DNA of 64,000 nt from the NCBI RefSeq assembly GCF_025947185.1, contig NZ_CP110001.1, forward strand, positions 310,001-374,000, given 5' to 3'. A program made the translations under genes and the position numbers. Origin of the DNA: Flavobacterium sp. N2038. GTDB lineage: Bacteria; Bacteroidota; Bacteroidia; Flavobacteriales; Flavobacteriaceae. This document shows, piece by piece, positions 21,358 to 30,697 of this stretch. Positions within the stretch are counted from its first letter, which is position 1, and each line of letters opens with the position of its first letter. Under the pieces are notes generated by a model. The model had not been told where the DNA came from, made no database searches, and saw nothing but the letters and a program-made list of their open reading frames with translations.

Positions 21358-22653
21358 TTAAACTTGCTCAAAAATACTTTTAAACTGGTATAAAATTCTT
21401 TCGATCAAACGTAAATCTTCGGTTACGATCTCGGCACTTCCTTTCATTTCCTGTTGAAATATAATTTGTTTTTTATAAGAAGTTTCCAATCCGTTTGGCA
21501 ATGCAACATCCAGCAATAAATTCCCGTCTTTATCGGGCACCAGTGAGATATTCTGAATCTTCCCTTTTAAAACACCAAACTCTCTGTCAGGAAAGTTAGC
21601 CAGGCGAATATTTACTCTTTGCCCTACTTTTATTTTTCCAGAATTTAAAGCTGGTGCTTTTACTTTGCCTATGAACCCATTTTTTGCATCCGGAATAATT
21701 GAAAAAACATTATCCCCTACATTTATGGTTTGATTTTCTGTCCAAACCTGCAAAAAAGTCACCACGCCACTTACAGAAGATTTTAGTGTATAAGCCATTT
21801 CCCAGTCTTTTATCACCTTTTTGAGCTGATAAAAAGATTGCGCCATGTTGCGACCAAGGTTAACTTCTTCTTTGGTGCTGTTTATGTGCGAATTCTGACT
21901 TGATTTTGTATTATCTATTAAAGAGGATCTCAATTGAGAAATTGATGACAAAAGGCTTCTATAATTCTTTTGCGCTTGTAAAAAACTCAACTTCTTAACC
22001 TCCATTTCCTGAGCTGAAATTATACCTTTATTGAATAAAACTTCAAAACGGGCAAGTTCATTTTTTTGAAGCTCCAATTCACCCTCGTTGATTGCTTTTT
22101 GCTGTTGTAAAATATCTAATCGCTCCTGTATCTGAATTTTTTCAGAATACTGCGCGCGGCTCTCTACTTCAAAAGGATGCAAATCCTCATTTAGTTTCTG
22201 TGCCTGATAATCTTTTTGAAAGACCGCATAAGCGCTTTCAATTTCTCCTAATTGCGCATTTTTCAGCTTCGAAAACGGAAAATCACTTTTAGGATCATTA
22301 ATATTATAAGAATCTATTATTCTATTTAATAAAAAAACATCTTTGTAATTAGCTGTATTTTCTATAATTGCAAGTGTAGTATTTTTGGGTACTATCGCTT
22401 TATTTTTTACCAAAATTACTTCGATGCGCCCTGAAGATTTTGCTACGATTTTCTCTGGTGGAATATTCGTTGTAATTAGAATTTCGGTATTTACCACATC
22501 CGGATATTTTACAAACCAGGAAACAAAAAACAACATCAGTATAATGACAAATATTAAAATAGTCCCCCATCGAATCATCCAATGCGGTACTTTGGTGAGA
22601 ATATCCTGAACCTCTTCACTTCTTAACTCAAATGTCGTGTTATCTTCAGCCAT
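21358..22653 (-). CDS. HlyD-family membrane fusion protein for peptide export
   Basis: This is a 431-residue periplasmic adaptor. After a cytoplasmic N-terminus, one membrane segment (about residues 29-47, ILIFVIILMLFFVSWFV) is followed by the first half of a lipoyl domain (KSSGRIEVILVKN), a long alpha-helical coiled coil (about residues 135-265) and the second lipoyl half with a beta-barrel (SSVSGVVTFLQVW, VGQRVNIRLANFPDREFG). Such proteins connect an inner-membrane ABC exporter to an outer-membrane TolC channel. It starts 3 bp after the ABC exporter stop, so the two are translated from one mRNA. No TolC gene lies in this cluster. Confidence 0.93.
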   Translation of the reverse strand: MAEDNTTFELRSEEVQDILTKVPHWMIRWGTILIFVIILMLFFVSWFVKYPDVVNTEILITTNIPPEKIVAKSSGRIEVILVKNKAIVPKNTTLAIIENTANYKDVFLLNRIIDSYNINDPKSDFPFSKLKNAQLGEIESAYAVFQKDYQAQKLNEDLHPFEVESRAQYSEKIQIQERLDILQQQKAINEGELELQKNELARFEVLFNKGIISAQEMEVKKLSFLQAQKNYRSLLSSISQLRSSLIDNTKSSQNSHINSTKEEVNLGRNMAQSFYQLKKVIKDWEMAYTLKSSVSGVVTFLQVWTENQTINVGDNVFSIIPDAKNGFIGKVKAPALNSGKIKVGQRVNIRLANFPDREFGVLKGKIQNISLVPDKDGNLLLDVALPNGLETSYKKQIIFQQEMKGSAEIVTEDLRLIERILYQFKSIFEQV

Positions 22654-22656
22654 ATA

Positions 22657-24849
22657 TTAATTACCTAATTGTAGTTGGTTTTTCACCAGTTCAAAATAAT
22701 TCCCTTTTTGGTTTACTAATGTCGAATGATTTCCTATTTCGATAATTTTCCCTTTATCCAAAACAACAATTTGATCTGCATTCATTACTGTACTTAATCG
22801 GTGTGCAATTACAACAACAGTTTTATTTTTAAAGAACACATCCAATTTTCTCATAATTTCTTTTTCGTTATTGGCATCCAGTGCCGATGTTGCTTCGTCA
22901 AAAAATAGTATTTCAGGATTTTTATAAACAGCTCTTGCGATTAACAATCGTTGTTTTTGCCCGGTACTCATTCCTACTCCTTCAGAACCAATCTTAGTAT
23001 TATAACCGAGTGGCAAACCACTTATATACTCTTTTATATTCGCCACATCTGCAGCATACAATAATCGTTGTTTATCGACTTTATCTACACCAATTGCAAT
23101 GTTATTGGCAATGGTATCACTAAAAATAAACCCTTCCTGCATGACGGCTCCAATAGTAGATCTCCACGCTTTTTGAGAGATATTTGACAGTTGTGCATTG
23201 CCAATGGTTATCTCCCCCTTATCAGGTTCATAAAATTTAAGAAGCAATTTCATTAAAGTCGTTTTTCCGCTTCCACTTACACCAACTATGGCTGTCACCT
23301 TATTTGCCGGAATTATCAGATTTAAATTTTTAAGAATAGGAATATCAGATCCCAAATAGCGATATGACAGGTTTTTTATTTCAATATCTGAATCATACAA
23401 AACATCATTTGTCTGATGAACTTCCTGCTGTGTTTCATCTTCTTTTTCATGAATTTCAGATAACCTCGCCAAAGAAATTTTTGCATCCTGAAGCTCTCTG
23501 ACAAATTCGATAAGCTGAGTAACTGGTCCGTTTAAACTCCCAACAATAGAACTTATGGCAAGCATCATCCCCAATGTAATAGAACCGTCAATTACTAATT
23601 TGGCCGAAAGAAAAATGATAAAGATGTTCTTTAATTCATTAATAACCGACGAGCCAATGGTTTGTGTCTGCTCTAAAATCAATCCTTTTATCGAAACTCT
23701 AAAAAGCCTTGCCTGAACGTATTCCCATCCCCAGCGTTTTTGCTTTTCGGCATTATGGAGCTTGATTTCCTGCATTCCGTTTATAAGTTCCATAACCTTG
23801 CTCTGCTCGTGAGAGACTTCGGCAAATCGCTTATAATCCAGAATTTCTCTTCTTTTTAAAAACAAAGTAATCCAGCCAAAATAAAATAGGCTTCCGACAA
23901 AAAAGACAAAAAATATCTGAAGATTAAAATAGGCCAAAACAGCGCCCATTACAAACATGTTAATAACCGAAAAAAGAACATTTAGAGATGATGTGGTCAG
24001 GATTTTTTCGATTCTGCGATGGTCATTAATTCGCTGCATTATATCTCCTGTCATTCGCACATCAAAAAAGGATATAGGCAGATTCATTAATTTAATAAAG
24101 AAGTCTGAAATCAATGAAATATTTATCCTGGTAGAGAGATGGAGCAAAATCCAGCTTCTAATTAATTCCAGCCCGATTCTTCCTGCAAAAAGAAATAATT
24201 GTGCGAAGAGAATGAGATAAATAAAGTGGATGTTTTGATTTTGTATTCCAATATCAACTATACTTTGGGTCAAAAAAGGAAAAATCAACTGCAATAAACT
24301 GCTCGCCAGTAACCCTATACTTAATTGTATTAAAAATGATTTATATCGAAAAACGTATTGCGACAAAAGCCCAAAACCCAATGTCTTATTATCTTCTTTC
24401 TCAAAATCTGATTGAAAAAATTTTGGTGTAGCTTCGATTAATAATGCAATCCCTTCCTTAGTTTGATCATCTGCATTATTTCCAATCCAAAATTTTAAAA
24501 AATCTTGTTGGTTGTATTCTATTAAACCAAAAGCAGGGTCAGAAATATAATAGATTCCTTTTTTAATTTTATAAAGTACTACATAATGATTTTTATTCCA
24601 ATGCAAAATACAGGGCAAAGGAGCTTCTTCCAGTCTTTCAGCGCTTAATTTTACTCCCAAAGTTCTAAAACCAATTTTCTCCGCAGCATCACTTAAAAAA
24701 AGCAAATTACTTCCTTCACGAGTTGTTTCGCTAATATCTCTTAACTCCTGAATATTGATTGTCTTACCGTAATGTTTTGCAATTATCTTTAAACATGTCG
24801 GGCCACAATCCTTATAATCTGCCTGTTTATAATTGGTGAATTTTTTCAA
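22657..24849 (-). CDS. Peptidase-containing ABC exporter (C39, double-glycine peptides)
   Basis: This is a 730-residue bacteriocin-type exporter that cuts leaders after Gly-Gly and exports the peptide. Residues 1-135 are an intact C39 cysteine peptidase: Gln9, Cys15 (DCGPTC), His88 (NHYVVL) and Asp104 (DPAFG). A six-helix membrane domain covers about 165-450. The nucleotide-binding domain has Walker A GVSGSGKT (523-530), Q-loop Gln571, signature MSTGQ (627-631), Walker B ILFFDE with Asp651/Glu652 and His683. It is adjacent to hlyD and directly downstream of the small double-glycine precursor genes, which are the obvious substrates. Confidence 0.96.
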   Translation of the reverse strand: MKKFTNYKQADYKDCGPTCLKIIAKHYGKTINIQELRDISETTREGSNLLFLSDAAEKIGFRTLGVKLSAERLEEAPLPCILHWNKNHYVVLYKIKKGIYYISDPAFGLIEYNQQDFLKFWIGNNADDQTKEGIALLIEATPKFFQSDFEKEDNKTLGFGLLSQYVFRYKSFLIQLSIGLLASSLLQLIFPFLTQSIVDIGIQNQNIHFIYLILFAQLFLFAGRIGLELIRSWILLHLSTRINISLISDFFIKLMNLPISFFDVRMTGDIMQRINDHRRIEKILTTSSLNVLFSVINMFVMGAVLAYFNLQIFFVFFVGSLFYFGWITLFLKRREILDYKRFAEVSHEQSKVMELINGMQEIKLHNAEKQKRWGWEYVQARLFRVSIKGLILEQTQTIGSSVINELKNIFIIFLSAKLVIDGSITLGMMLAISSIVGSLNGPVTQLIEFVRELQDAKISLARLSEIHEKEDETQQEVHQTNDVLYDSDIEIKNLSYRYLGSDIPILKNLNLIIPANKVTAIVGVSGSGKTTLMKLLLKFYEPDKGEITIGNAQLSNISQKAWRSTIGAVMQEGFIFSDTIANNIAIGVDKVDKQRLLYAADVANIKEYISGLPLGYNTKIGSEGVGMSTGQKQRLLIARAVYKNPEILFFDEATSALDANNEKEIMRKLDVFFKNKTVVVIAHRLSTVMNADQIVVLDKGKIIEIGNHSTLVNQKGNYFELVKNQLQLGN

Positions 24850-25034: not shown

Positions 25035-25223
25035 TTAGTGATCCAGTAAACAGCTCTCTTCAATAACAGACTGGCAACTTTCACCTTCGTTTACGTGTAT
25101 AACGCCTGCAAAAGAACCATCAGGACAATAACATGCCTCAATACCGCCTCCACCTCCAAAAATATTTTTCTTTTCAACAACACCTAAAACTTCAACTCCA
25201 AATAAATCTTTTAATTTTTTCAT
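25035..25223 (-). CDS. Double-glycine leader peptide precursor 1 (4 Cys)
   Basis: This is a 62-residue putative secreted peptide precursor. The charged leader (MKKLKDLFGV..., KKNIFGG) ends in five glycines at 23-27, and the mature part contains Cys31, Cys33, Cys50 and Cys58, enough for two disulfides. It lies immediately upstream of the C39 ABC exporter and is preceded by the conserved pseudoknot-like element. The leader resembles other Bacteroidota bacteriocin-like precursors, but the mature sequence is not one I recognise. Whether it is an antibacterial, a signal or something else is unknown. Confidence 0.75.
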   Translation of the reverse strand: MKKLKDLFGVEVLGVVEKKNIFGGGGGIEACYCPDGSFAGVIHVNEGESCQSVIEESCLLDH

Positions 25224-25246
25224 AATTTGTTTTTTGATTTGTTATT

Positions 25247-25281
25247 GCTTCAATCCTTTTATGACAGTTGAAGCCTCTGTC
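25247..25281 (-). promoter_or_regulatory. Pseudoknot-like 5' element, copy 1
   Basis: Read on the minus strand in order: GACAG, 2 nt, GCTTCAA, CTGTC, a 9-nt A-rich linker, TTGAAGC. GACAG pairs with CTGTC and GCTTCAA with TTGAAGC, which is the topology of an H-type pseudoknot. It ends 23 nt before the precursor 1 start codon. It could instead be a protein-binding DNA site. Confidence 0.6.
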
Positions 25282-25309
25282 TTATTATTTTATTATTGCT
25301 TATTTAATA

Positions 25310-25338
25310 AAAAATAGAGAGGAAAAAAATTCCTCTCT
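25310..25338 (-). terminator. Terminator after precursor 2
   Basis: On the minus strand, AGAGAGGAA and TTCCTCTCT (25316-25324, 25330-25338) form a 9-bp stem followed by an uninterrupted T-run. It lies between precursors 2 and 1. Confidence 0.8.
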
Positions 25339-25428
25339 GAGATTTGTAAAACCCTGTCAAAAATTAAAAGTAATATCAAAAAAGATATCTCTATTTACAG
25401 ATTAACCGGTTTATTGTATTTAAAATGT

Positions 25429-25611
25429 TTAGTCGCAAGCCTCACTAGGGTCTGATACACAAATCCAATAAGCTGGTGAGGTTGCAGTTCTTGGACATCT
25501 TTTAGCAATAGTATTGCCTTCGCAAATTGGTGCATTACCACCATTAATTTTTTGTTGCTCTTCTTTACTTAATTCAGCAACTCCATTTAATTCAAAAATT
25601 TTCTTTAACAT
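25429..25611 (-). CDS. Double-glycine leader peptide precursor 2 (4 Cys)
   Basis: This is a 60-residue precursor with a classic leader, MLKKIFELNGVAELSKEEQQ then KINGG (Gly24-Gly25), matching the LSxEExxKIxGG pattern recognised by C39 peptidases. The predicted 35-residue mature peptide has Cys30, Cys39, Cys51 and Cys59. It is preceded by copy 2 of the conserved 5' element and followed by its own terminator, so it may be expressed as a short transcript. The mature peptide is not recognised. Confidence 0.82.
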   Translation of the reverse strand: MLKKIFELNGVAELSKEEQQKINGGNAPICEGNTIAKRCPRTATSPAYWICVSDPSEACD

Positions 25612-25637
25612 AATTTGGTTCTTTTGGGTTTGTTAAT

Positions 25638-25673
25638 GCTTCAATCCTTTTAAGACATTTGAAGCTTCTGTCT
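25638..25673 (-). promoter_or_regulatory. Pseudoknot-like 5' element, copy 2
   Basis: The layout is the same as in copy 1: AGACA pairs with TGTCT and GCTTCAA pairs with TTGAAGC, with the A-rich linker TTAAAAGGA before the last arm. It ends 26 nt before the precursor 2 start codon. Confidence 0.6.
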
Positions 25674-25710
25674 TTTCTGTTAAATCGTATTATAAGTTTA
25701 AAAATAAATT

Positions 25711-25746
25711 AAAAAAGCAGTAAGAAAAACATGCTACTTACTGCTT
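25711..25746 (-). terminator. Terminator in the precursor 3 to precursor 2 gap
   Basis: On the minus strand, AAGCAGTAAG and CTTACTGCTT (25737-25746 and 25715-25724) form a perfect 10-bp stem followed by a T-run. Confidence 0.82.
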
Positions 25747-25784
25747 ATAATTATTTCAATTATTTAATAACTTAATTTCTCTAG

Positions 25785-25905
25785 GATCTGCCACTGGTTA
25801 ACCCTAACCAATTAAAATCAACGCAGCGGCTAACTTCCTGAGAATCCCGACACCAATCATCAATGTGGGGATATTTGCTCAATGTTCCACGATCGAGCGC
25901 CTACA
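25785..25905. other. GC-richer non-coding segment within the peptide cluster
   Basis: About 47% GC over 25801-25900, against roughly 30% around it. A small hairpin TGGTTA/TAACCA lies at its left end (about 25795-25810). On the minus strand a 38-codon open frame runs into it without a start codon. It sits between precursors 3 and 2 and could be a relic of a lost gene or of inserted DNA. Confidence 0.4.
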
Positions 25906-25982
25906 AATTAAAAAAAACATGACTAAATTTTAATAAGGCTTAATATTGTACTTCAAATAAATTATTTCCGTTAAAAAAAAAC

Positions 25983-26174
25983 TTAACAACAAAGACGGTT
26001 TGTTCCACATATCCCCGGGGTTGTCTCTACAGGACAAATTCCACCGGTTGGTATTAAAACACAGCCTGCCTCGATTGCAAAAACCCAGCATTCAGGAATT
26101 CCACCCGACATATTTTTTTGCTCAGCTTTTGTAACTTCCTGAGCGCTTTCCAGATTTAAGATCTTTTTTAACAT
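25983..26174 (-). CDS. Double-glycine leader peptide precursor 3 (6 Cys)
   Basis: This is a 63-residue precursor. The leader MLKKILNLESAQEVTKAEQK then NMSGG (Gly24-Gly25) aligns without gaps to precursors 2 and 4. The mature part of about 38 residues is hydrophobic and carries Cys29, 38, 47, 56, 62 and 63, allowing three disulfides. Unlike the other precursors, I see no copy of the pseudoknot-like element before it. It is the strongest candidate substrate for the neighbouring disulfide-forming protein. Confidence 0.82.
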   Translation of the reverse strand: MLKKILNLESAQEVTKAEQKNMSGGIPECWVFAIEAGCVLIPTGGICPVETTPGICGTNRLCC

Positions 26175-26213
26175 TGTTATTTAATTAAATTTTAATCACA
26201 TTTTGAGTGTTCT

Positions 26214-26285
26214 TTATTCTTTTAGTCTAAAATTCCTACCACCGAATAATCCAGAACAACCATTCATCATATTACTTATAATCAT
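26214..26285 (-). CDS. Possible 23-residue micro-ORF with LFGG
   Basis: An ATG at 26285, 6 nt after the precursor 4 stop, opens a 23-codon frame containing NGCSGLFGG and ending KE. It could be a coupled small peptide or a relic. Length and isolation make it uncertain. Confidence 0.25.
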   Translation of the reverse strand: MIISNMMNGCSGLFGGRNFRLKE

Positions 26286-26291
26286 TCCCAA

Positions 26292-26462
26292 TTAAACTGG
26301 TCTATAGTTAACCGGATAATTCAAACAAATAATTTCACTCGCATACCAAGTCATGTACCCACATACAGGTTCTTCAACAGGGTATTCTTCACTATTAATA
26401 TTTTTTTTCTCATTTATTGTTAATTCATGAGATCCCTCAAGATTTAAAATGTTTTTCAGCAT
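26292..26462 (-). CDS. Precursor 4 with degenerate double-glycine site (2 Cys)
   Basis: This 56-residue gene begins MLKNILNLEGSHELTINEKK and aligns residue for residue with the precursor 3 leader, but the Gly24-Gly25 of that leader is replaced by Ser24-Glu25 (NINSEE). The remainder has Cys34 and Cys46 and is rich in aromatic residues. It retains the conserved 5' element and lies directly after the VKOR gene. Cutting by the C39 peptidase is not expected, so it is either a decaying precursor or a peptide that stays attached to its leader, for example as a regulator. Confidence 0.65.
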   Translation of the reverse strand: MLKNILNLEGSHELTINEKKNINSEEYPVEEPVCGYMTWYASEIICLNYPVNYRPV

Positions 26463-26488
26463 AATAATAGTTTTTTTATTGGGGTATA

Positions 26489-26525
26489 CCTCAAACTTTT
26501 ATAGACATCTGAGGCTTCTGTCTAT
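26489..26525 (-). promoter_or_regulatory. Pseudoknot-like 5' element, copy 3
   Basis: In transcript order: ATAGACA, GAAG, CCTCA, GA, TGTCTAT, AAAAGTT, TGAGG. The first stem extends to 7 bp. In the second stem a T-A pair of copies 1 and 2 is replaced by C-G, a compensatory change. It begins 14 nt after the VKOR stop and ends about 26 nt before the precursor 4 start. Confidence 0.6.
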
Positions 26526-26538
26526 TACTATTTATTCT

Positions 26539-28098
26539 TTATGCAATCTTTTCAAGAATAGTTTCTTTCTCGTCTGTCAAATCGTTCAGAAAATATTTTA
26601 ATTCACTTAATTCATATTCGGCCGGAAACAATTTTTCATTTACAATCCTTACCGGGGTATAATTAAAATTATTCTTAGAACACCATTCATATTGTTTATT
26701 TATTTCCTGGCTCACCATCATGCTAATGTTCTCTACATGCCATTTCTTTAGCCACTTTTTCAGGTTCATTTTTTTAATATGCCAATCAGAAATTGCTTCG
26801 ACTGTTTTTCCCGGAGTTGACCTGTTAATTGTCAACAATCTTTCTACCACAACCTTAAATGGATTTTCGGTATTATCGGGATTTATATTAAATAATATAT
26901 TTAAACTTACTTTATCCGGAAATTTTAAAACCATATCAAAAGCTTCCTGAAATGTTTTATGACAATGTCCGCAGCTTGGGCTTATAATTATGGTTAATTT
27001 CACTGCTGCATTTCTATTACCAAAATTCAGTCCTCTTAAATTTTCAAATCCATTTGAGAATAAAACTTTTTTGGACAAAAAATTCATTAATGAATAATTC
27101 CTTTTAAATTTTTTCAAATCCTTTAAGCTATTTTCGGTCTCTAAAACTCCTTTTAGCATTGATTTTGCGACTAACCATGTTGGCAAGAGAATAGCAAATG
27201 AAAATACAAACGGAAAAATACTTTCAAAGCTAAATGTCAATGTAAAAAGATCAGATGCAAACCATACGATACTTTGCACTAAAATCAAGAACGAAACTGC
27301 CAAACACATCATACACCACTTTTGAATCTCAAACTTCTGAATCCAAATTGAAGATACAATTACAGGAATTGTCAATAAGCTCAAAAAACCAATAAAAACG
27401 GCAGATTCTAATGGCTGTATTAAAACTGCAATAACACTGGAAGCAAAAAACAATAATGGCAAATCTGAAAAGCTAAATAACCTGTTTTTATTTTCCTCTT
27501 TGTAATTTAAAACTGAATTACATGATGAATTTGAAGTTAGATTACAAAACTTTGTAATTATACTATTTTTAAAACCTAATTTTTCCTGTACTATAAATAC
27601 GCTAACTATAAGTCCTGTTATTGATGTTGCTAAAAAAACAAGACTAAACAAATCAAACGGGTTGTAAAAAAAAGCCAAACCTACTATTAGGATAAAAGGA
27701 AAAGAATACTTCAACCAATTATATTCAACTTTAAAGTTCTCTTTTGCTATTGCGTTATTTGGTTCAATTGCCACAATAACTCCATTCCAGTCTAAAAGAA
27801 ATTTTTCGTATGAAATTTTTTTACTTCCTTTTTTTATTGTTGTAATACGAACATCATTTTTAAACTTTTCAACCAACGTAAGTTCCTCTTTAAAATAGGC
27901 AAGGAAATTTGTTGGCAAATCAACTATCTGTTCTTTCGAAACTCTAACAGCTGCATTTTCTATTGCCAATAAATCTAACGAATCTGTTATCGCAAATAAA
28001 CTTGGATAATTAGGATGAGAAAGAAATAAATCTTTAAACTCATTTTTAATTTCCGAGTATCTGTTTATTTGGAGAAATTTTTGAATAAGTTTTAACAT
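26539..28098 (-). CDS. VKOR-thioredoxin fusion with degenerate C39-like N-terminus
   Basis: This is a 519-residue membrane oxidoreductase that should make disulfides in exported proteins. I chose the ATG at 28098; the longer frame would need a TTG start. Residues 1-115 resemble a C39 domain (HPNYPSLFAITDSL, LPTNFLAYF, FLLDWNGVIVAIEP) but lack catalytic Cys and His. Residues 130-310 are a VKOR domain with loop cysteines Cys185/Cys193 and Cys262-x-x-Cys265 (WCMMC). The C-terminus is a thioredoxin fold with CGHC (376-379) and a cis-Pro at 482. It lies directly upstream of the Cys-rich precursor genes. Confidence 0.88.
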   Translation of the reverse strand: MLKLIQKFLQINRYSEIKNEFKDLFLSHPNYPSLFAITDSLDLLAIENAAVRVSKEQIVDLPTNFLAYFKEELTLVEKFKNDVRITTIKKGSKKISYEKFLLDWNGVIVAIEPNNAIAKENFKVEYNWLKYSFPFILIVGLAFFYNPFDLFSLVFLATSITGLIVSVFIVQEKLGFKNSIITKFCNLTSNSSCNSVLNYKEENKNRLFSFSDLPLLFFASSVIAVLIQPLESAVFIGFLSLLTIPVIVSSIWIQKFEIQKWCMMCLAVSFLILVQSIVWFASDLFTLTFSFESIFPFVFSFAILLPTWLVAKSMLKGVLETENSLKDLKKFKRNYSLMNFLSKKVLFSNGFENLRGLNFGNRNAAVKLTIIISPSCGHCHKTFQEAFDMVLKFPDKVSLNILFNINPDNTENPFKVVVERLLTINRSTPGKTVEAISDWHIKKMNLKKWLKKWHVENISMMVSQEINKQYEWCSKNNFNYTPVRIVNEKLFPAEYELSELKYFLNDLTDEKETILEKIA

Positions 28099-28704
28099 CT
28101 TTTTCGAATCGTTTAATTCATAATTACACTGCAAAGATTGCTGTTTTTATTGACAAAAATCTCGTGATAGCAGACATTTTATCAATTATACTACATACAA
28201 TTTATAAATTATACCTATCAAAACAAAGTGTTAATCATCTGAATTATAATACATTACATCGACAAAATCTTCAACAAAACCCGCAAAAGCCAATTCTCGA
28301 CCAAGCGTTTTGCTTTTTATCTAGCTTTGACATATCAGTAATCCAAACAGGGAAAAAGAGGAAAAAATCTAAAATAAAATTGAGATTTCTTTTGATAAAA
28401 AAAGCCTTAGAAAGACAAAAAAATATTTACTGAAACAAGCTTTAGAACCCTGTTTTTTTTTGTAAAAGCTACATAAAAACAAAAGCTTTAAGCTCCAAAA
28501 AAATAAAAACTAACCCCTTTATATCTCAAATTAATAATTAATCAACATGAAAAATTTGAAAAATATGAGGAAAAAAGCAATCAAAACGTAGTTTAAAAAG
28601 GAAGCCTCGGAATTATACCATAGGCTAAAGCCCCCAAAATAGCATGAAAAAACTGCTATTCTATCTTACAATATAAATCAATACATAACTATAATCTATT
28701 TATC
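28099..28704. other. 606-bp gap with a truncated leader-like micro-ORF
   Basis: There is no credible full gene. On the plus strand at 28547-28591 a 14-codon frame (MKNLKNMRKKAIKT) resembles the start of a Bacteroidota bacteriocin-like leader cut short by a stop. At about 28635-28665 AATAGCA and TGCTATT form a hairpin without a T-run. The 89-codon frame at 28164-28433 is judged spurious. Confidence 0.4.
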
Positions 28705-28857
28705 ATGACAACTAACAAAATGAAATTCGACAATTTTCAAGCCGAAAAATTATCTAAAACTCAACAAAAAACCGTGCGCGGTGGAGATACCGTAGGTGTA
28801 GATCCAACAGATCCAAAATACGATCCAACAAAAGGTGGAGGCACTGGAAATGGATAA
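28705..28857 (+). CDS. Orphan double-glycine peptide precursor without Cys
   Basis: This is a 50-residue frame with a leader containing KFDNFQAEKLSKTQQ, then TVRGG (Gly26-Gly27), followed by a short Asp/Pro/Gly-rich part (DPTDPKYDPTKGGG) without cysteines. A second ATG at codon 6 is an alternative start. It lies on the strand opposite the main cluster, is followed by a very strong terminator and faces the TPR-AraC regulator gene. The leader form resembles other Bacteroidota Gly-Gly peptides, so export by the nearby C39 transporter is plausible but not shown. Confidence 0.6.
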   Translation: MTTNKMKFDNFQAEKLSKTQQKTVRGGDTVGVDPTDPKYDPTKGGGTGNG

Positions 28858-28948: not shown

Positions 28949-30697
28949 CTAAATATTACTTGCAAATTGAGCCGGAGACACACCGGTTCTTTTACGAAAT
29001 GATTTTGCAAACGAAACTGCATTTTTAAATCCGACACTTTCTGCAATTGCCTGAGTCGAATATTTACGATACATATGATTCGTAATCATCTCATTGATTA
29101 CGTAGTTAATTTTAAGCTCATTAGAATATTCTCCAAATGACTTCCCAAATCTTTTATTAACAACGTAGGACAAATAAGTAGTGTTTGTTTTTATTTTTTT
29201 GGCAACATAAGGCAAAGTAAAATCAGCATTTAGATATTCTAATTTACTCTCGAGTGCCAATAGTTTTTCGACAATTTTATTTTCTTTGGCTTCGTCAATA
29301 CTTAAATTAACATTTTCTTTTTTAAGCTGAACATCTTCCAATTCTTCCTTTTCATGCACGACCTCTTCGATAACCTCGTTTTCCTTTTTCTCCAGATTGG
29401 CTTTAAATTCTTCAATTAGAGCATTCATTTTTTTATGCGCTTTATTTTTATCCCGTATGTTTTTTACAAGTAAAAATATTATCCCAACAACAAGCAGGAC
29501 ATAGAATACTCTAAGAGCCTTATTCAGTAAAACTTCATTTTTATATTTCTCCTGAATAGTAACCATTTCGGTTCCCAAATCTTCCAGACCTAATTTATAG
29601 TTTACCTCCAGGGCTTCATCTCTTAATTTTGTTTCAGACTTTTCGTAACTATCCAGGTAAATTTTCGAATGTTTATAGGCCTGCTCAGGCTCATTCATTA
29701 AATTATAAATCTTTGCCTGTAAATAATTTGATTTTAAATAGCTTACATCCAGAGTTTTATTCTTTAACGAAATAGAATCTACTTTTCCAAAACATACCAA
29801 AGCTTTATCATATTTCTTATTCCAAAAATACAAGTCGCCTAAATTATAATTTGCAGCCTGAAACAATTGTTCAGAATTATTTTGTTTCGATAAAAACAAG
29901 ATGTCAAAATATGTTTTTTCGGCATTTACAAGATCATTCTTTATCAAATAAATATTCCCTAAGCTCATTTTTGCAGTAATCTTATTGTTTACAAAATTCT
30001 CTGAATAAGTAACTGCTTTTTTATAAAAGTATTCAGCAGAATCCAGCAAATACATCTTATCGCGATTCTTCATATAATAACTTTCATATGAAGTACCTAA
30101 ATTAATATTGATGTTACTTTTGCTGTTTTGAAACTGCTCTTTTGTATAGACACTTTCGTTTTTATTAATAAAGTCATTGTTTTGTCTCAAATTCTTGATG
30201 GACAATTGGTAATTTCCAATCTCCTCATTAATTAAAGCAATATTACTTTTAAACTTTACCATTTGGATAACATCATTCACTTCGGTAGAAAATTTGATCC
30301 CTTTTTGGTAATTATCTAGTGCTTTACCCAGATTGCCTCTTTTCCACTCTATTAACCCCTTATAATTATAAAGATAGCCTGCAACTTTTGTTTTCTCAGA
30401 AGAAGGAGGCATTTTATCTAAATATTGAAGTGCTGTTTTGTAACTTTGATCAGATTTGGCAACATTACCTTTGAGTTGGTATAAATACGAAGCTGCGCCG
30501 TTGGCAAAAGCCAAATGCTTGTCATTAGTAGATTTCATCAATTCTTTAGTGTATGCAAGACCCTGATCGAAATTTGAATTCATACTGAATCGAATTTTGT
30601 CCTGCAACTCTAAATATTCCTGTTCATTAATTTGAGTTTTTTGTGCAAACCCAATACTGAGAACATGAAAAAGTAAAAAAGAGATGATTAGCCTCAT
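28949..30697 (-). CDS. TPR-containing membrane regulator with AraC-type DNA-binding domain
   Basis: This is a 582-residue hybrid regulator of a type common in Flavobacteria. A signal peptide (about 1-18, ending GFAQ) exports an N-terminal region of tetratricopeptide repeats (about 30-370). One membrane helix follows (FYVLLVVGIIFLLV, about residues 395-408), then a charged coiled-coil linker (about 415-480) and a C-terminal AraC HTH domain containing TNTTYLSYVVNKRFGKSFGEY and AESVGFKNAVSFAKSFRKRTG. It may sense a periplasmic signal and act at the membrane. It neighbours the peptide cluster and could regulate it, but nothing in the sequence proves that. Confidence 0.88.
   Translation of the reverse strand: MRLIISFLLFHVLSIGFAQKTQINEQEYLELQDKIRFSMNSNFDQGLAYTKELMKSTNDKHLAFANGAASYLYQLKGNVAKSDQSYKTALQYLDKMPPSSEKTKVAGYLYNYKGLIEWKRGNLGKALDNYQKGIKFSTEVNDVIQMVKFKSNIALINEEIGNYQLSIKNLRQNNDFINKNESVYTKEQFQNSKSNININLGTSYESYYMKNRDKMYLLDSAEYFYKKAVTYSENFVNNKITAKMSLGNIYLIKNDLVNAEKTYFDILFLSKQNNSEQLFQAANYNLGDLYFWNKKYDKALVCFGKVDSISLKNKTLDVSYLKSNYLQAKIYNLMNEPEQAYKHSKIYLDSYEKSETKLRDEALEVNYKLGLEDLGTEMVTIQEKYKNEVLLNKALRVFYVLLVVGIIFLLVKNIRDKNKAHKKMNALIEEFKANLEKKENEVIEEVVHEKEELEDVQLKKENVNLSIDEAKENKIVEKLLALESKLEYLNADFTLPYVAKKIKTNTTYLSYVVNKRFGKSFGEYSNELKINYVINEMITNHMYRKYSTQAIAESVGFKNAVSFAKSFRKRTGVSPAQFASNI

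Follow-up and report, generated by a model that had tools for sequence, protein, structure and literature searches.

The preQ1-I and SAM-II riboswitches have an H-type pseudoknot architecture and act by translational control, and the Downstream-peptide motif (RF01704), later named the glutamine-II riboswitch, also has a pseudoknot fold. A further class of RNA structures stabilises or insulates parts of a message between cistrons that are expected to need different output. The Downstream-peptide motif is described as a small cis RNA in potential 5′ UTRs of open-reading frames (ORFs) typically of 17-100 aa, and STAXI as a repeated pseudoknot found as tandem repeats near DNA-handling genes (PMC2864571). 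The element described here, ~35 letters long, resembles each of these in part. Like RF01704 it lies in potential 5′ UTRs or leaders of short ORFs, but RF01704 is cyanobacterial and marine whilst our element occurs in the Bacteroidota, before predicted exported peptides with a GG leader, its end lying ~26 nt from the AUG. With preQ1-I, SAM-II and (as its abstract describes it) SAM-V it shares a compact H-type pseudoknot, yet it has no Rfam match, does not lie before preQ1 or SAM genes and shows no visible sequestration of the start site. It stands, like the intercistronic structures, between cistrons expected to need different output, but forms a conserved, covarying pseudoknot family common to many genera, and in contrast to the STAXI repeats it occurs once before a peptide gene.

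The locus lies in a 64,000 nt stretch of Flavobacterium sp. N2038 (contig NZ_CP110001.1, positions 310,001 to 374,000), which we refer to as the window. A minus-strand cluster in it encodes an oxidoreductase (VKOR-C39), four short peptides with similar leaders, a C39-ABC exporter and an HlyD adaptor, with the following features in the direction of transcription:

26539-28134, minus strand: VKOR protein that also has C39-like and thioredoxin-like regions (match to PF07884 above cutoff; those to PF03412 and PF13462 narrowly below)
~26488-26525, minus strand: pseudoknot copy 3, stem 1 ATAGACA/TGTCTAT (7 bp), stem 2 GCCTCAG/TTGAGGT
26292-26462, minus strand: precursor 4, 56 aa, element-bearing, start of leader similar but without GG
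25983-26174, minus strand: precursor 3, 63 aa, GG leader, without element, downstream of precursor 4
25715-25746, minus strand: putative terminator-like hairpin and T-run 5′ of copy 2, read by eye
~25638-25672, minus strand: pseudoknot copy 2, stem 1 AAGACA/TGTCTT, stem 2 GCTTCAA/TTGAAGC
25429-25611, minus strand: precursor 2, 60 aa, GG leader, element-bearing, NCBIfam CTB bacteriocin match below cutoff
25311-25338, minus strand: putative terminator-like hairpin and T-run in the gap between precursor 2 and copy 1, read by eye
25247-25281, minus strand: pseudoknot copy 1, stem 1 GACAG/CTGTC, stem 2 GCTTCAA/TTGAAGC, third loop (L3) ATAAAAGGA
25035-25223, minus strand: precursor 1, 62 aa, GG leader, element-bearing
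22657-24849, minus strand: C39 peptidase ABC exporter
21358-22653, minus strand: HlyD-family adaptor

The preliminary description of this DNA had proposed three minus-strand copies of a pseudoknot-like element, and we recovered all three with the described pairing at the claimed positions, 23, 26 and 26 nt before the ATG of precursors 1, 2 and 4, respectively. A covariance model, in whose training set the three copies were included, matched them at 25245-25284, 25636-25675 and 26486-26525. Copy 3, with 16 nt between the oxidoreductase stop codon and GACA, precedes the first peptide gene downstream of the oxidoreductase gene (531 aa if the listed TTG start is used); its 7-bp stem 1 and the compensatory change in its stem 2, C-G where copies 1 and 2 have T-A, were as reported. 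The stem lengths needed revision: both pairings stand, but stem 1, GACA/TGTC together with the pairs that flank it, is better given as 5-7 bp, and stem 2 as 6 bp with an optional seventh. Precursor 3 (ATG at 26174) indeed lacks the element, no copy being found upstream by sequence or by covariance model. Copies 1 and 2 are both downstream of putative terminator-like hairpins and so are probably not simply internal to one RNA. Elsewhere in the 4.67 Mb genome, a pattern allowing three mismatches found the three window copies and one match judged unrelated (L004), with no match to the reversed-pattern control at the same tolerance, and the covariance model located a genuine fourth copy outside the window (267676-267715, ~68 kb from the cluster), upstream of a lone 62-aa GG-leader peptide gene that is followed by a terminator-like hairpin.

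The earlier remark that the element belongs to no recognised riboswitch class was borne out. When the window was searched with Rfam 15 (4227 families) at gathering score only a tRNA matched, and a loose search of three copy-bearing stretches returned 12 matches, all far below gathering scores, none of which spans the whole element in sense. The best of these, ncr952 (E 6e-5, 32 of 100 bits), lies beside the element, and the RF01704 model matched it neither in the window at gathering score nor loosely in the three stretches. Our literature search, whose scope excluded most subscription papers and all preprints, found no description of the element. The family seems not to have been described before, and the comparative support for it as an RNA is clean.

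The element is almost certainly a cis-acting H-type RNA pseudoknot, and its structure and position are well supported by comparison of homologous sequences. By model position, the consensus reads AGACA (3-7), any letter (8), A (9), the first arm of stem 2 (12-17), any letter (18), TGTCTT (19-24), A or T (25), AAA (26-28), TGA (29-31) and the second arm of stem 2 (32-37); stem 1 comprises pairs 3-23, 4-22, 5-21, 6-20, 7-19 and 8-18, and stem 2 pairs 12-37 through 17-32 with an optional 11-38. Judged from lengths and letters only, L1 is ~3 nt, 0 nt separate the helices and the A-rich, near-invariant L3 is 8-9 nt, with A26-A28 at 98-100%. Stem 1 is nearly fixed (GACA/UGUC), whilst the sequence of stem 2 varies freely yet remains paired. 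In 161 distinct copies, those exactly 40 nt long, the stem-2 arms occur in 45 combinations (for example CTTCAA/TTGAAG, CCTTGA/TCAAGG, CTGTGA/TCACAG, TTCCAA/TTGGAA, CTGCAA/TTGCAG and TGGTGA/TCACCA) and, of the 966 core cells of stem 2, 960 hold a Watson-Crick or G.U pair; positions 5, 6, 9 and 26 are essentially invariant in this set and positions 4, 7, 17, 19-24, 27, 28, 30 and 32 are 95-99% conserved.

Of the alignments, A1 left out two of the 26 genus copies (L014, with a one-base insertion, and L020, with stem 2 broken), A2 omitted L040 and L047, which were judged chance, as well as five family copies that differ in length, and A3 and A4, being fitted to a stem-2 model, lean towards stem 2. 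The core six stem-2 pairs form in all 40 distinct rows of A2, where stem 2 holds 59 double-change cells against 23.6 when shuffled, and across 135 distinct rows 94.2% of 1754 cells were paired, compared with at most 52.9% with slid partners. Under a tree-based null of 200 simulations, the best six of 780 column pairs were all pseudoknot pairs, five of them at E<0.05: 13-36, 14-35 and 15-34 (E=0 of 200 nulls) and 16-33 (E 0.005) in stem 2, and 8-18 (E 0.035), the sole stem-1 pair among the six; the column pairs ranked after these lie within stem 2. A smaller run (135 rows, 40 nulls) placed the same five pairs on top with three at E<0.05, both nulls being an in-house imitation of R-scape. The other stem-1 pairs hardly vary and hence carry no covariation information. 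Pair 8-18 reads UG in 53 copies, CG in 46, UA in 19, GC in 15 and AU and GU in one each, with GA in 20 and other combinations in six unpaired by the usual rule. The two interleaved helices of the proposed H-type fold are thus both present, with covariation in each.

Homologues are concentrated in one bacterial family. The genome searches scored 16 to 44 candidates per genome, so that the tallies from them are lower bounds. A degenerate pattern with up to two mismatches matched at least 23 of 249 genomes of the genus, our own included, against five reversed-control matches in five genomes; among the loci fetched, five of the genus (L005, L006, L016, L017 and L025) were judged chance by context, and in 26 genus copies, the window's three included, the element starts 52-65 nt before the ATG of short peptide ORFs. 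A stem-2 covariance model (R1, 24 sequences) found copies with quite different stem-2 sequences in at least 15 of 397 genomes of the family (13 of 237 genera), where the matches L040 and L047 were the two judged chance. R2, a second model built on 41 sequences, matched at least 20 of 150 genomes in a genus sample and 14 of 346 in the order, as well as 10 of 395 in a draw from the phylum at E≤0.001, these all belonging to the window's genus or to one other genus of the family. One genome (G826, genus g131) carries 18 copies at E≤0.01 over several contigs. When one genome per species was scanned with an exact pattern (84,980 species), 96 stretches matched, an undercount because the pattern misses the window's own copies, in which L3 differs; 91 are from Flavobacteriaceae (36 Flavobacterium, 27 Tenacibaculum and 28 others) and two from Bacteroidales MAGs, with the copies upstream of GG-leader peptides. 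Three outside the Bacteroidota were judged chance: two lack both an R2 match and a paired stem 2, and in the third a weak match falls within an apparent gene. The same exact pattern, which undercounts here too, had no match in viral contigs. A copy was also seen in another family of the order (L162:938-977), where the gene that follows it encodes a secreted 114-aa protein lacking a GG leader.

The genes downstream were examined in 192 unique copies, obtained by merging the best 150 of 211 matches (A3) with the 71 copies of A4, removing duplicates and dropping copies with less than 90 nt downstream. An ATG ORF of at least 25 aa lies within reach of 188, and in 184 it begins 24-34 nt from model position 38, with a peak at 26-29 nt. 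The expectation that homologues would precede small peptide genes held well: 186 copies are followed by an ORF of ≤130 aa, and 173 of the 192 downstream peptides have GG in residues 11-35, compared with 266 of the 2614 remaining short ORFs in the copy-bearing stretches, a control that contains true element-free peptide genes. A stricter leader pattern was found in 164 of the 192 and in 190 of the 2614; a looser rule (G then G, A or S) admits 183 downstream peptides, but 469 of the 2614 other ORFs also pass. The exceptions are four copies without such an ATG ORF, the L162 protein, a lipoprotein-like ORF of 246 aa (L177:2247), a membrane protein of 482 aa that begins at 54 nt (L053) and several peptides that lack GG, of which the window has one. 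Overall, most downstream genes encode a GG leader, and in the window a C39-ABC exporter and an HlyD adaptor lie nearby; they are predicted GG-leader exported peptides, bacteriocin-like by leader and exporter context, although the four in the window all scored below the cutoffs of curated families. The element goes with a single kind of gene, that for exported peptide precursors, mainly in one bacterial family, and offers a bioinformatic handle for finding small, poorly annotated peptide genes.

On the upstream side, 96 of 178 copies have a same-strand ORF stop within 60 nt and therefore lie inside a polycistronic RNA, unless a promoter is located in the upstream gene. Forty of the 60 nearest stops are at 19-23 nt, many of them ending HlyD-, ABC- or VKOR-C39-like proteins; the upstream ORFs were called mechanically; a few are doubtful, and among the short ones some read peptide genes out of frame. 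Two other interpretations of the region were rejected. An upstream ORF starting at an ATG inside L3 fails as the ATG is absent in the window copies and in others, and a promoter reading found few, scattered TAnnTTTG boxes (raw counts over 300 nt of 8 for the 62 copies without a near upstream ORF and 11 for the 96 with one) and little conservation farther than ~24 nt upstream, and for these reasons no start sites were placed.

The position of the element within peptide arrays was counted over 310 peptide genes in the named stretches and the window, with peptide genes recognised by regular expressions and the element by a relaxed detector. Of the 66 peptide genes that come directly behind a long gene, 56 carry the element, as do 57 of the 173 located behind another peptide gene and 37 of the 71 with no gene within 250 nt. 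Because these loci, the window apart, were found through holding an element, labels were permuted within each locus (2000 permutations), which gave a mean of 41.4 and a maximum of 51 against the 56 observed. Element-free genes that follow a peptide gene stand a median of 29 nt behind it, as expected of coupled genes. The element is thus enriched on the first peptide cistron after a long gene, yet it is neither obligatory nor confined to heads of arrays, since 57 of the 173 after-peptide genes carry it and 34 of the 71 stand-alone genes lack it.

Ribosomes of Bacteroidota do not use Shine-Dalgarno pairing, and the end of the element, ~26-29 nt before the AUG, falls just outside the ribosome footprint. 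The spacer from the pseudoknot to the AUG contains hardly any G and has A at -13 to -11 (0.77, 0.90 and 0.82) and at -3 (0.86). In comparison with 110 element-free peptide genes separated from the preceding gene by 25 nt or more, A at -3 was found in 136 of 150 element-bearing against 82 of 110 element-free genes and absence of G from -20 to -4 in 121 of 150 against 67 of 110, whilst for A at -13 to -11 the difference was not significant (87/150 versus 50/110, P=0.06). The frequency of A at -6 is 0.23 with the element, lower than the 0.49 of element-free genes as a whole. In Flavobacterium johnsoniae, whose mRNAs are devoid of Shine-Dalgarno sequences, initiation is favoured by A at -3, -6, -12 and -13, and bS1 is predicted to be close to the region around -12 (PMC6847099).

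The element probably helps the cell to make the peptides independently of the preceding genes. The mechanism that we favour, tentatively but as a quite plausible one, is that a pseudoknot in the 5′ leader or the intercistronic gap directly upstream of the exported-peptide genes would give the peptide cistron an initiation site of its own, decoupled from the upstream genes. The stacked pseudoknot would form a boundary just 5′ of the ribosome-bound region, leaving the nearly G-free spacer open and separating the initiation site from upstream RNA and ribosomes, and the peptide cistron would so acquire a strong initiation site free of Shine-Dalgarno pairing. Ribosomes could then load on it independently of the upstream cistrons, and peptide output could exceed that of the exporter and oxidoreductase from the same RNA. 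The element also offers a small and readily mutated model for asking how Bacteroidota, whose ribosomes do not rely on Shine-Dalgarno pairing, assign different levels of translation to the cistrons of one mRNA.

Many copies outside the window (L051 among them) have a palindrome ~4-20 nt 5′ of the element, centred ~9 nt from GACA and often right behind the stop codon of the upstream gene. The commonest forms are TTCGCGAA (35 copies), CTTGCAAG (10), CTCGCGAG (9) and CTGCGCAG (5), and the core varies but stays self-complementary (TCGCGA, TTGCAA, TGCGCA). Any perfect 8-nt palindrome within 30 nt upstream occurs in 73 of 192 copies, compared with 8 in a control stretch; it was not seen in the window copies and is absent from many others. 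A hairpin whose loop is palindromic, a kissing loop and a DNA site would each fit; as a hairpin loop, the core (UCGCGA, UUGCAA, UGCGCA) could pair copies with each other.

This palindrome excess, and an AraC-type gene nearby, are what might be expected if the element were a DNA operator with dyad symmetry, bound for instance by the TPR-AraC-type protein at 28949-30697, and a DNA-bound regulator had been among the options in the preliminary description. The pattern of substitution disfavours that option. In a DNA dyad, one-sided transitions should leave G.T and A.C equally often, but the one-sided departures in stem 2 comprise 45 G.U, 4 A.C and 2 others of the 966 cells (P 4e-10 for G.U against A.C, a figure that ignores relatedness and so is too strong), and when each of the 45 distinct stems is counted once, the fairer comparison, there are 26 G.U and 4 A.C (P 3e-5). 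Because G.U so far exceeds A.C, the pairing is that of an RNA rather than of a DNA dyad, and with an unconserved stem-2 sequence and the low conservation upstream noted above, an operator is very improbable. No better placed is a single-strand DNA recombination site that would shuffle peptide cassettes by analogy with integrons, in which folded attC sites do so: it would suit such a site that different peptides stand in tandem and that several of them have an element each, but the constant orientation, the narrow distance to the AUG, the lack of exact-pattern matches in viral contigs and the presence of the element on lone genes make it highly improbable.

Among RNA functions, the near-invariance of stem 1 and of the loop residues exceeds what a barrier needs and hints at contact with a ligand, a protein or the ribosome. 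A switch whose ligand is a metabolite, an ion, a regulator or some part of the peptide machinery, and which on binding it sets peptide translation on or off, would account for the conservation of positions 5, 6, 9 and 26 and of those at 95-99% beyond the needs of base pairing, and the copies of one genome, as many as 18 over several contigs, would form a regulon; such a switch is possible, if on the unlikely side, as no Rfam riboswitch matched, stem 2 ends too far (~26-29 nt) from the AUG to cover the start itself and no systematic alternative pairing was found. Complements of the stem-2 arms occur in none of 164 spacers. Those of the 5′ arm were present in 7 of 164 start regions (shuffled maximum 6) and 6 of 164 upstream regions (shuffled maximum 5), those of the 3′ arm in none of the 164 of either; the 5′-arm counts are slightly above the shuffles, but no systematic signal of an expression platform built on these arms was seen. 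Rather unlikely is a role in mRNA stability or processing, by which the element would protect the downstream, peptide part of a polycistronic RNA from decay, so that peptide mRNA builds up relative to exporter mRNA; its frequent position close behind the stop of a VKOR-C39, ABC or HlyD gene, its enrichment at the head of peptide arrays and the palindrome, possibly a hairpin, just 5′ of many copies fit this, but protection does not need a narrow distance to the AUG, and stand-alone genes such as that of the fourth own-genome copy also carry the element. It is unlikely, too, that the pseudoknot loads ribosomes throughout the lineage, with the fixed stem 1 and A-rich loop contacting the 30S platform or bS1 to recruit ribosomes to an internal cistron, which would make it a bacterial counterpart of an internal entry site. 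Insulation, ribosome recruitment, RNA protection and sensing would all fit the present sequence data alike, insulation of the peptide cistron being the function in the mechanism that we favour.

Other genes at the locus touch on the same system. A further GG-leader peptide of 50 aa is encoded on the opposite strand (28705-28857, plus strand; TIGR04149 match below cutoff), with no copy of the element upstream at E≤0.1, and the TPR and AraC-type helix-turn-helix protein (28949-30697, minus strand) that adjoins the peptide cluster is a possible candidate for its transcriptional regulator. Relatives of the VKOR-C39 protein are encoded in 44 of 150 genus genomes, comprising 19 of the 20 element-bearing and 25 of the 130 element-free genomes (Fisher 4e-11, kinship and genome size being ignored), and the element lies directly 3′ of the VKOR-C39 gene in several genomes, including G107, G120 and G004. 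The VKOR-C39 protein may serve disulfide formation in Cys-containing peptides.
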